Assembly (NCBI RefSeq): GCF_013753875.1
Contig: NZ_SMDS01000019.1
Coordinates: 124,001-188,000 of the forward strand
Source: Candidatus Pantoea persica
GTDB taxonomy: Bacteria; Pseudomonadota; Gammaproteobacteria; Enterobacterales; Enterobacteriaceae
Reading direction: 5' to 3'
DNA length: 64,000 nucleotides
The stretch's first letter is position 1; every line of letters begins with the position of its first letter. The notes beneath the pieces are model-generated. The model was not told where the DNA came from. It saw only the letters and a program-made list of their open reading frames with translations, and did no database searches. Position numbers and translations under genes: made by a program. Shown here one piece after another: positions 42,402 to 43,558 of this stretch.

Positions 42402-42844
42402 TCAGGGTTTAGTGGCGACCAGCACCGCGCGCAGCGGCGCCGGGATAGTCTTCCACCATTTTGCTGGGATCGTGCGGATCGAGGAAGTCAGCCAGCGATT
42501 CGCTGGTCATCCAGCTGGTGCGGCGCTGCTCGTCGGTAGAGGTCACGGCGTAATCAACAATCTTCACGTCAACGAAGCCGCACTTCTCTAGCCAGTTTTT
42601 CAGCGCCGGCACGGAAGGAATAAAGTAGACGTTACGTATCTGCGTGTAGCGTTCGCCCGGCACCAGCACGTCGCGCTAGTCTCCCTTAATCACCAGCGTC
42701 TCCAGCAACAGCTCGCCGCCGCTCACCAGCTGGTTTTTCAGCTGCAGCAGATGGTCGAGCGGCGATCTGCGCCGGCAGCACTTCGAGCCAGCTAGCAAGC
42801 GGACCCGTGGCGATTTGCTGATAAAAATGGCCAAACTCAATCAT
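42402..42844 (-). pseudogene. cmoB: tRNA U34 carboxymethyltransferase CmoB, large internal deletion
   Basis: CmoB transfers the carboxymethyl group of carboxy-SAM to 5-hydroxyuridine-34, giving cmo5U in several tRNAs. ATG 42844 opens [20 protein letters not shown], and after about 28 codons the sequence jumps to [20 protein letters not shown]. About 200 residues, including the SAM-binding GCGSG motif, are lost. TAG at 42676-42678 falls before [10 protein letters not shown], then [20 protein letters not shown] and [20 protein letters not shown] follow. A shift close to the end restores [11 protein letters not shown] only in another frame. Confidence 0.92.
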
Positions 42845-43558
42845 TTCAACGCCACCAGCGAACCGAAGTTAAAGCACTGGAACCAAAGTTCCGTGTGAGA
42901 GAAGCCCGCCTGTTTCAGGCGCGCCTTGTGCGTCTCGATGCTGTCGGCCAGCATCACGTTCTCCAGCATGCTGCACTTCTGGCTGATCTCCAGCTCGCTG
43001 TAGCCGTTGGCACGCTTGAAATCGTGATGCATGTTGAACGGCAGCTCGCCGACGTCGGCGTCCTCAAAGCTGAACTTTTCCGACAGCACCAGCGCGCCGC
43101 CGGGCTTCAGTCCCTGCCAGATTTTGCTCAGTAGCGCCTCCGGGGCGAGGAATTGCAAGGTGAAATTCAGCACCATCAGCGAGGCGTTTTCGATCGGTAT
43201 ATCGCGGATATCCGTCTCGATAACGTCCACCGGCGTCGCGGCGCGGAAGGCGTCAATATGGCGTAGGAAGCGCTCCACCATCGCCGGGGAGTTATCGACG
43301 GCGATTAATGGTGCAGCCTTCCGCCTGAATATTACGGCGGATAGAAAGCGTGGCGGCGCCAAGCGAGCAGCCAAGGTCGTAAACTTGGCTGTTGGGCTGC
43401 ACAAAACGTTCTGCCAGCATTCCAATCATGGAGATGATGTTGTAATAGCCCGGCACCGAGCGCTGAATCATGTCGGAAAAGACTTCAGCCACGCGCCCAT
43501 CAAATGTCCAGTCGCCCAGTTTGGCTATGGGCGCAGAAAATAACGCGCGGTCAGACAT
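42841..43558 (-). pseudogene. cmoA: Carboxy-SAM synthase CmoA, one-base insertion
   Basis: CmoA makes carboxy-S-adenosylmethionine from SAM and prephenate for CmoB. ATG 43558 starts [20 protein letters not shown], with [20 protein letters not shown] and the SAM motif [14 protein letters not shown]. Near 43312 an extra A in TGCACCATTAATCGCC shifts the frame; the next frame continues [20 protein letters not shown] to the end, [15 protein letters not shown]. Five residues are also missing in [15 protein letters not shown]. The stop overlaps the cmoB start (ATGA). Full-length function is lost unless the shift is bypassed. Confidence 0.92.

Follow-up and report, generated by a model that had tools for sequence, protein, structure and literature searches.

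Probable decay of the cmoA-cmoB operon in Candidatus Pantoea persica, a likely symbiont undergoing genome reduction

What happens to a bacterium whose tRNAs are deprived of cmo5U34? Among the published reports cited here, the closest case is the E. coli ΔcmoB mutant, in which ho5U34 accumulates and which is viable, growing only slightly more slowly (PMC6599085). In E. coli lacking cmoB, +1 frameshifting increases at GCG, and at UCG when serU is also absent, and the loss of both hydroxylases has worse effects; one of the hydroxylases, TrhO, modifies a subset of tRNAs (PMC6599085). These knockouts indicate that cmo5U aids the reading of G-ending codons and is not essential. Natural cases are known as well, since tRNA-modification genes drop out with genome size in Mollicutes and insect endosymbionts (PMC4014445, PMC9035817). 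Mollicutes likewise have no CmoA or CmoB, but these enzymes are described as having arisen outside the Firmicutes, so that, unlike the case presented here, theirs is not a recent loss, and their genomes are far smaller (PMC4014445, PMC9035817). Closer in kinship is a group of stink-bug symbionts, namely P. persica, P. bathycoeliae, and Plautia stali symbiont B, which have reduced genomes near P. latae and P. septica; Candidatus Pantoea persica itself, also named in PMC10665919, is a stink-bug gut symbiont of 2.85 Mb near the same two species, and predicted pseudogenes amount to 43-46% for P. bathycoeliae and Candidatus P. persica (PMC10720322). The portions of PMC10720322 available to us contain no statement on cmoA or cmoB in stink-bug Pantoea symbionts, and a literature search over titles and abstract openings found no report of the cmoA and cmoB loss in Pantoea that we describe below.

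The window analyzed here is a stretch of 64,000 nucleotides, C11:124001-188000 of the Candidatus Pantoea persica draft assembly (2,852,448 bases, 23 contigs, 98% complete). Its AspS is 94-95% identical to the P. septica, P. deserta, and P. latae orthologues, and on the strength of genome size and kinship the Pantoea of the window is probably a stink-bug gut symbiont with a reduced genome. The operon order is cmoA-cmoB on the minus strand, window 43558-42402, and the cmoA stop and cmoB start overlap at 42841-42844. A preliminary description of this DNA held both genes to be broken, and alignment with P. septica and P. latae confirms the lesions, all of which are on the minus strand. The cmoA pseudogene (Cx-SAM synthase; 42841-43558) has its ATG at 43558 and its stop at 42841-42843. 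The one-base insertion already attributed to it is confirmed at about 43306; it brings in a stop at 43292-43294, so that 88 codons are left. An in-frame gap with its junction at 43134-43135 measures 9 nt, and thus three residues instead of the five first stated; a further 3-nt gap lies close to the start. The TIGR00740 profile (239 positions) is matched in different frames, over positions 3-82 and 80-239, and not in a single continuous CmoA frame. The second of these fragments by itself reaches 235 bits against a cut-off of 193.3, and passing the TIGR00740 cut-off is therefore no proof of an intact gene.

The cmoB pseudogene (tRNA U34 carboxymethyltransferase; 42402-42844) has its ATG at 42844, overlapping the cmoA stop, and ends by alignment at about 42402. 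It has suffered a 527-nt deletion with its junction at 42765-42766, and since 527 is not a multiple of three, the deletion also shifts the frame. An in-frame TAG is present at 42676-42678, both in the alignment and in the TIGR00452 match, and an extra base is located near the 3' end at approximately 42445. Where the preliminary description put the loss at about 200 residues including the SAM motif, the alignment gives about 176 (codons 27-202 of the P. septica gene), and the Cx-SAM site is indeed gone. Placed by alignment and by what we take to be the E. coli numbering, the deletion spans the codons for Lys-91 and Tyr-200. These are Cx-SAM-contacting residues of E. coli CmoB (PMC4482062). The remaining TIGR00452 match covers just positions 197-307 of 316, includes the TAG, and scores 169.8 bits against a 275-bit cut-off, well short of a full-length enzyme; PF08003 is matched on two fragments.

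In P. septica, P. deserta, and P. latae, by comparison, cmoA and cmoB are full length, and 242/242 and 322/322 codons, respectively, are aligned among them. The two adjacent genes have thus accumulated six separate changes, and four of these shift the reading frame, introduce a stop, or take away most of the active site. The N/S value of cmoA is 0.86 vs 0.10 in P. latae, 0.16 in P. deserta, and 0.20 in G014, a second small Pantoea genome (2.4 Mb) used for comparison, and constraint on cmoA is clearly relaxed (p = 4.5e-7). The cmoB remnant (140 of 322 codons) has an N/S of 0.45 vs 0.14-0.22, a difference that alone is not significant (p = 0.24). Six changes combined with the raised amino-acid replacement in cmoA argue decisively against chance or a sequencing slip, and a working enzyme is not to be expected from either gene. 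TIGR00740 and TIGR00452 profile searches of the 2.85-Mb draft assembly found no second copy of either gene, the exception allowed for in the preliminary description. We propose that cmoA and cmoB are very probably decaying pseudogenes in a probable symbiont in the midst of genome reduction, that the cmo5U34 pathway has failed, and that the organism tolerates its failure.

The loss of cmoA and cmoB is part of a general decay, as shown by 226 genes that P. deserta and P. septica both carry intact. In the 601 kb examined here, 140 of them were matched, 64 intact and 76 broken or partial; the other 86, without a match in those 601 kb, may lie elsewhere in the genome. For G014, of which a smaller portion was examined, 41 of the 226 genes are intact, 61 are broken or partial, and 124 are unmatched. 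As a control, 125 mechanically defined ORFs, some of them overlapping, were followed in P. septica, where 119 are intact and 6 are not; here 24 are intact, 40 are broken, and 61 have no match in C11. Many neighbors of the operon are similarly broken, with whole frames in genes that, by reading, we take to be argS, cutC, a yecE-like gene, aspS, and ruvC. Both genes between cutC and cmoB (window 41396-42385) are broken by stops or frameshifts; their P. deserta orthologues encode 281 and 210 aa. The marks of pseudogenes in a genome undergoing reduction are found together: intact orthologues in relatives, several lesions, relaxed constraint (in cmoA and trhP), and many broken genes. The loss of tRNA-modification genes from reduced genomes is well known, and the present case is an ordinary reductive loss, presumably a neutral one.

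Loss of these genes has occurred elsewhere in the order as well. A cmoB match over the cut-off is present in 57 of 60 genomes (our own counted among the 60), and the exceptions are this genome, G037 (2.2 Mb), and G049, the latter two being without a cmoA match too. G049 has 4.3 Mb in one contig, is 100% complete, and contains only a weak cmoB match resembling another methyltransferase; the loss of cmo5U genes is therefore not restricted to small genomes. In G005, cmoB is over the cut-off yet its match is divided between two frames.

Which other steps of the pathway have been affected? The preliminary description pointed to trhO and trhP, the genes for the ho5U precursor, and these have fared differently. 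Here trhP, which adjoins a yegS-like gene as in E. coli, is a pseudogene in pieces with three stops, and its constraint is clearly relaxed (p = 8.7e-6), while trhO is open as a 352-aa frame. Likewise, cmoM is a 272-aa frame without stops. Its N/S is somewhat raised (0.51 vs 0.13 in P. deserta and 0.20 in P. latae), and only 6 of 64 genes rank higher in this excess (cmoM itself perhaps counted; Fisher p = 0.069), which is only suggestive of relaxed constraint. A weak second TIGR00452 match at C11:61487, at first guessed to be cmoM, is a 242-aa frame that we read as presumably a UbiG-type methyltransferase; cmoM is located elsewhere. In G014 (C11:55148-55840 and C1:6203-6373) the decay is complementary: trhP is broken, with two TAG codons and residues 121-358 only, cmoM is reduced to residues 1-57, and cmoA and cmoB are intact. 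The same pathway is thus decaying at different points in two small genomes, trhP and cmoM having been lost in one and trhP, cmoA, and cmoB in the other, and the pair illustrates the stepwise falling apart of tRNA modification during genome reduction. In G018, a larger genome, one TAG lies within the cmoM match.

These losses might be adaptive, and not due to drift alone, if life in a single host niche, or in one that is cool or rich in oxygen, made prephenate-dependent hydroxylation and cmo5U dispensable. As this would predict, both of the small Pantoea genomes examined have a broken trhP. The gene is whole, in a single frame, in the other six of the eight genome entries searched, which, because G007 and G060 have identical coordinates, represent five distinct relatives, all with larger genomes. 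A second peptidase-U32 locus in this genome, C9:272291-273050, which by reading we take to be ubiU/ubiV-like, is also frameshifted; a third was not found in the Candidatus Pantoea persica assembly, so that both U32 loci found are broken while the oxygen-dependent trhO is open. However, since 76 of the 140 orthologues matched are broken or partial, drift is expected to produce several losses within one pathway, and G014 has kept cmoA and cmoB, so that there is no common pattern downstream of trhP. We consider adaptive loss improbable.

We therefore return to reductive decay, under which three steps of the pathway would have failed, namely the prephenate-dependent hydroxylation by TrhP, the synthesis of Cx-SAM by CmoA, and the transfer of the carboxymethyl group by CmoB. 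The oxygen-dependent hydroxylation by TrhO would be left, as would methyl ester formation by CmoM, now presumably without its substrate. With trhP, cmoA, and cmoB broken and trhO and cmoM open, cmo5U34 is not expected. In its place, the UNN tRNAs for Ala, Val, Ser, Pro, Thr, and Leu would carry ho5U34 where TrhO acts and bare U34 otherwise, and since TrhO is limited to a subset of tRNAs, ho5U may be partial.

Which codons would depend on these tRNAs? The draft assembly contains 48 tRNA matches, all typed with ARAGORN, and one more tRNA piece cut by a contig end. The genes found are, for Ala, GGC (two); for Val, UAC (two) and GAC (three, some atypical); for Ser, UGA (two), GGA, and GCU; for Pro, UGG, GGG, and CGG; for Thr, UGU, GGU (two), and CGU; and for Leu, UAG, UAA, CAA, CAG, and GAG. 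The suggestion that some G-ending codons are served by a UNN anticodon only holds for GCG, GUG, and UCG, for which no CNN anticodon occurs among the 48 tRNA genes, although, the assembly being a draft, one might be hidden in a gap. It does not hold for CCG, ACG, and CUG, each of which has a CNN tRNA: Pro(CGG), Thr(CGU), and Leu(CAG). Judged by the draft, then, GCG, GUG, and UCG have only UNN tRNAs to read them. The tRNA-Ala(UGC) gene was not found among the 48 tRNA genes of the draft. This gene is normally located in rRNA operons, and rRNA was not found in the seven pieces, out of 14, that were searched, namely six small contigs in full and the initial 3 kb of C1; we therefore take tRNA-Ala(UGC) to be unassembled. 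The Ala, Val, and Ser UNN tRNAs alone would read GCG, GUG, and UCG, less efficiently than with cmo5U, and this would be tolerated.

The preliminary description suggested that G-ending codons could be affected, and a handicap of this kind has left no clear trace in codon use. The comparison covers 19,363 aligned sites in 64 intact genes, 64 of 87 genes having been kept and those without an intact P. septica orthologue dropped. The share of the box here, in P. septica, and in P. deserta is 0.478, 0.504, and 0.461 for GCG; 0.511, 0.493, and 0.439 for GTG; and 0.404, 0.423, and 0.337 for TCG, or, rounded, 48/51/40% here vs 50/49/42% in P. septica. The three codons are not clearly depleted and are used about as often as in the larger-genome relatives. 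The main result against an absence of effect concerns polarised NNG loss, which is more frequent in UNN-only boxes (229/1336) than in CNN-covered ones (218/1892; p = 6e-6, and p = 0.0009 in a smaller first pass of 35 genes), with no such contrast in G014 (112/725 vs 154/1005, p = 0.95; first pass p = 1.0). One reading is that selection acts against these codons, in which case the UNN-dependent G-ending codons would be giving way to others and the changing codon use would compensate for the lost modification. The loss rates by box, here and in G014, are 0.170 and 0.172 for Ala, 0.133 and 0.147 for Ser, 0.187 and 0.130 for Val, and 0.094 and 0.150 for CTG. Because the Ala and Ser rates agree with those of G014, only Val being higher, and the contrast stems mainly from low loss of the Leu codon CTG, we do not count it as compensation. 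Moreover, NNG gains are not reduced in UNN-only boxes (152/1153 vs 92/843, p = 0.13), and the net shares of GCG, GTG, and TCG are little changed from P. septica and all exceed those of P. deserta. We regard compensation by codon use as quite improbable. That the breaks are sequencing or assembly errors is scarcely credible. This is a draft genome of 23 contigs, in which some single-base indels may be errors, but the 527-nt deletion, the stop codon, the 9-nt gap, and the excess of amino-acid replacement in cmoA do not have the look of errors, and frames are whole for 87 genes in the regions examined.

Reductive decay of cmoA and cmoB would place this bacterium beside E. coli mutants. As in ΔcmoB and ΔcmoB ΔserU, CmoB is absent and ho5U34 is expected; as in ΔserU, UCG is left with the UGA-anticodon tRNA only, and GCG likewise with the UGC tRNA only (PMC6599085). 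Unlike ΔcmoB, which retains trhP and trhO (PMC6599085), it has a broken trhP, and with TrhO as the one hydroxylase left, its state is expected to be at, or between, those of ΔcmoB and of double-hydroxylase loss. The loss is, in addition, a natural one, in a genome where the affected codons are the commonest of their boxes. Since these codons remain common, the case is a useful natural experiment on the need for cmo5U. It is possible, and we advance it tentatively, that GCG, GUG, and UCG, among the commonest codons of this GC-rich bacterium, are translated solely by tRNAs with ho5U34 or bare U34. If so, either cmo5U can be dispensed with in nature even under the highest demand, or compensation occurs in a form as yet unrecognised in the ribosome or tRNAs. 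Comparing a lineage without trhP, cmoA, and cmoB with G014 would allow the long-term cost to be gauged from codon use, from tRNA genes, and from proteins.

Finally, we considered a recent loss of tRNA-Ser(CGA) as a second event, which is not borne out, as a serU-like tRNA was not found in relatives either. BLAST with E. coli serU gave a match in 6 of 8 genome entries (not here and not in G061), and all six loci were typed as tRNA-Ser(GGA). A degenerate pattern that matches E. coli serU occurred in 0 of 60 genomes including this one, with no positive control within the genome search, and a stricter exact 17-base pattern in 0 of 35, this genome among them; a diverged CGA tRNA would escape both BLAST and pattern. 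ARAGORN on the P. deserta, P. septica, and G014 stretches returned few tRNAs and no Ser gene. Pantoea may generally lack tRNA-Ser(CGA), leaving UCG to tRNA-Ser(UGA). We also note that the two tRNA-Ser(UGA) genes of this genome are adjacent and non-identical (C2:353018-353258), and that its three tRNA-Val(GAC) genes stand in tandem (C11:286265-286502), two of the three having unusual ends or loops.
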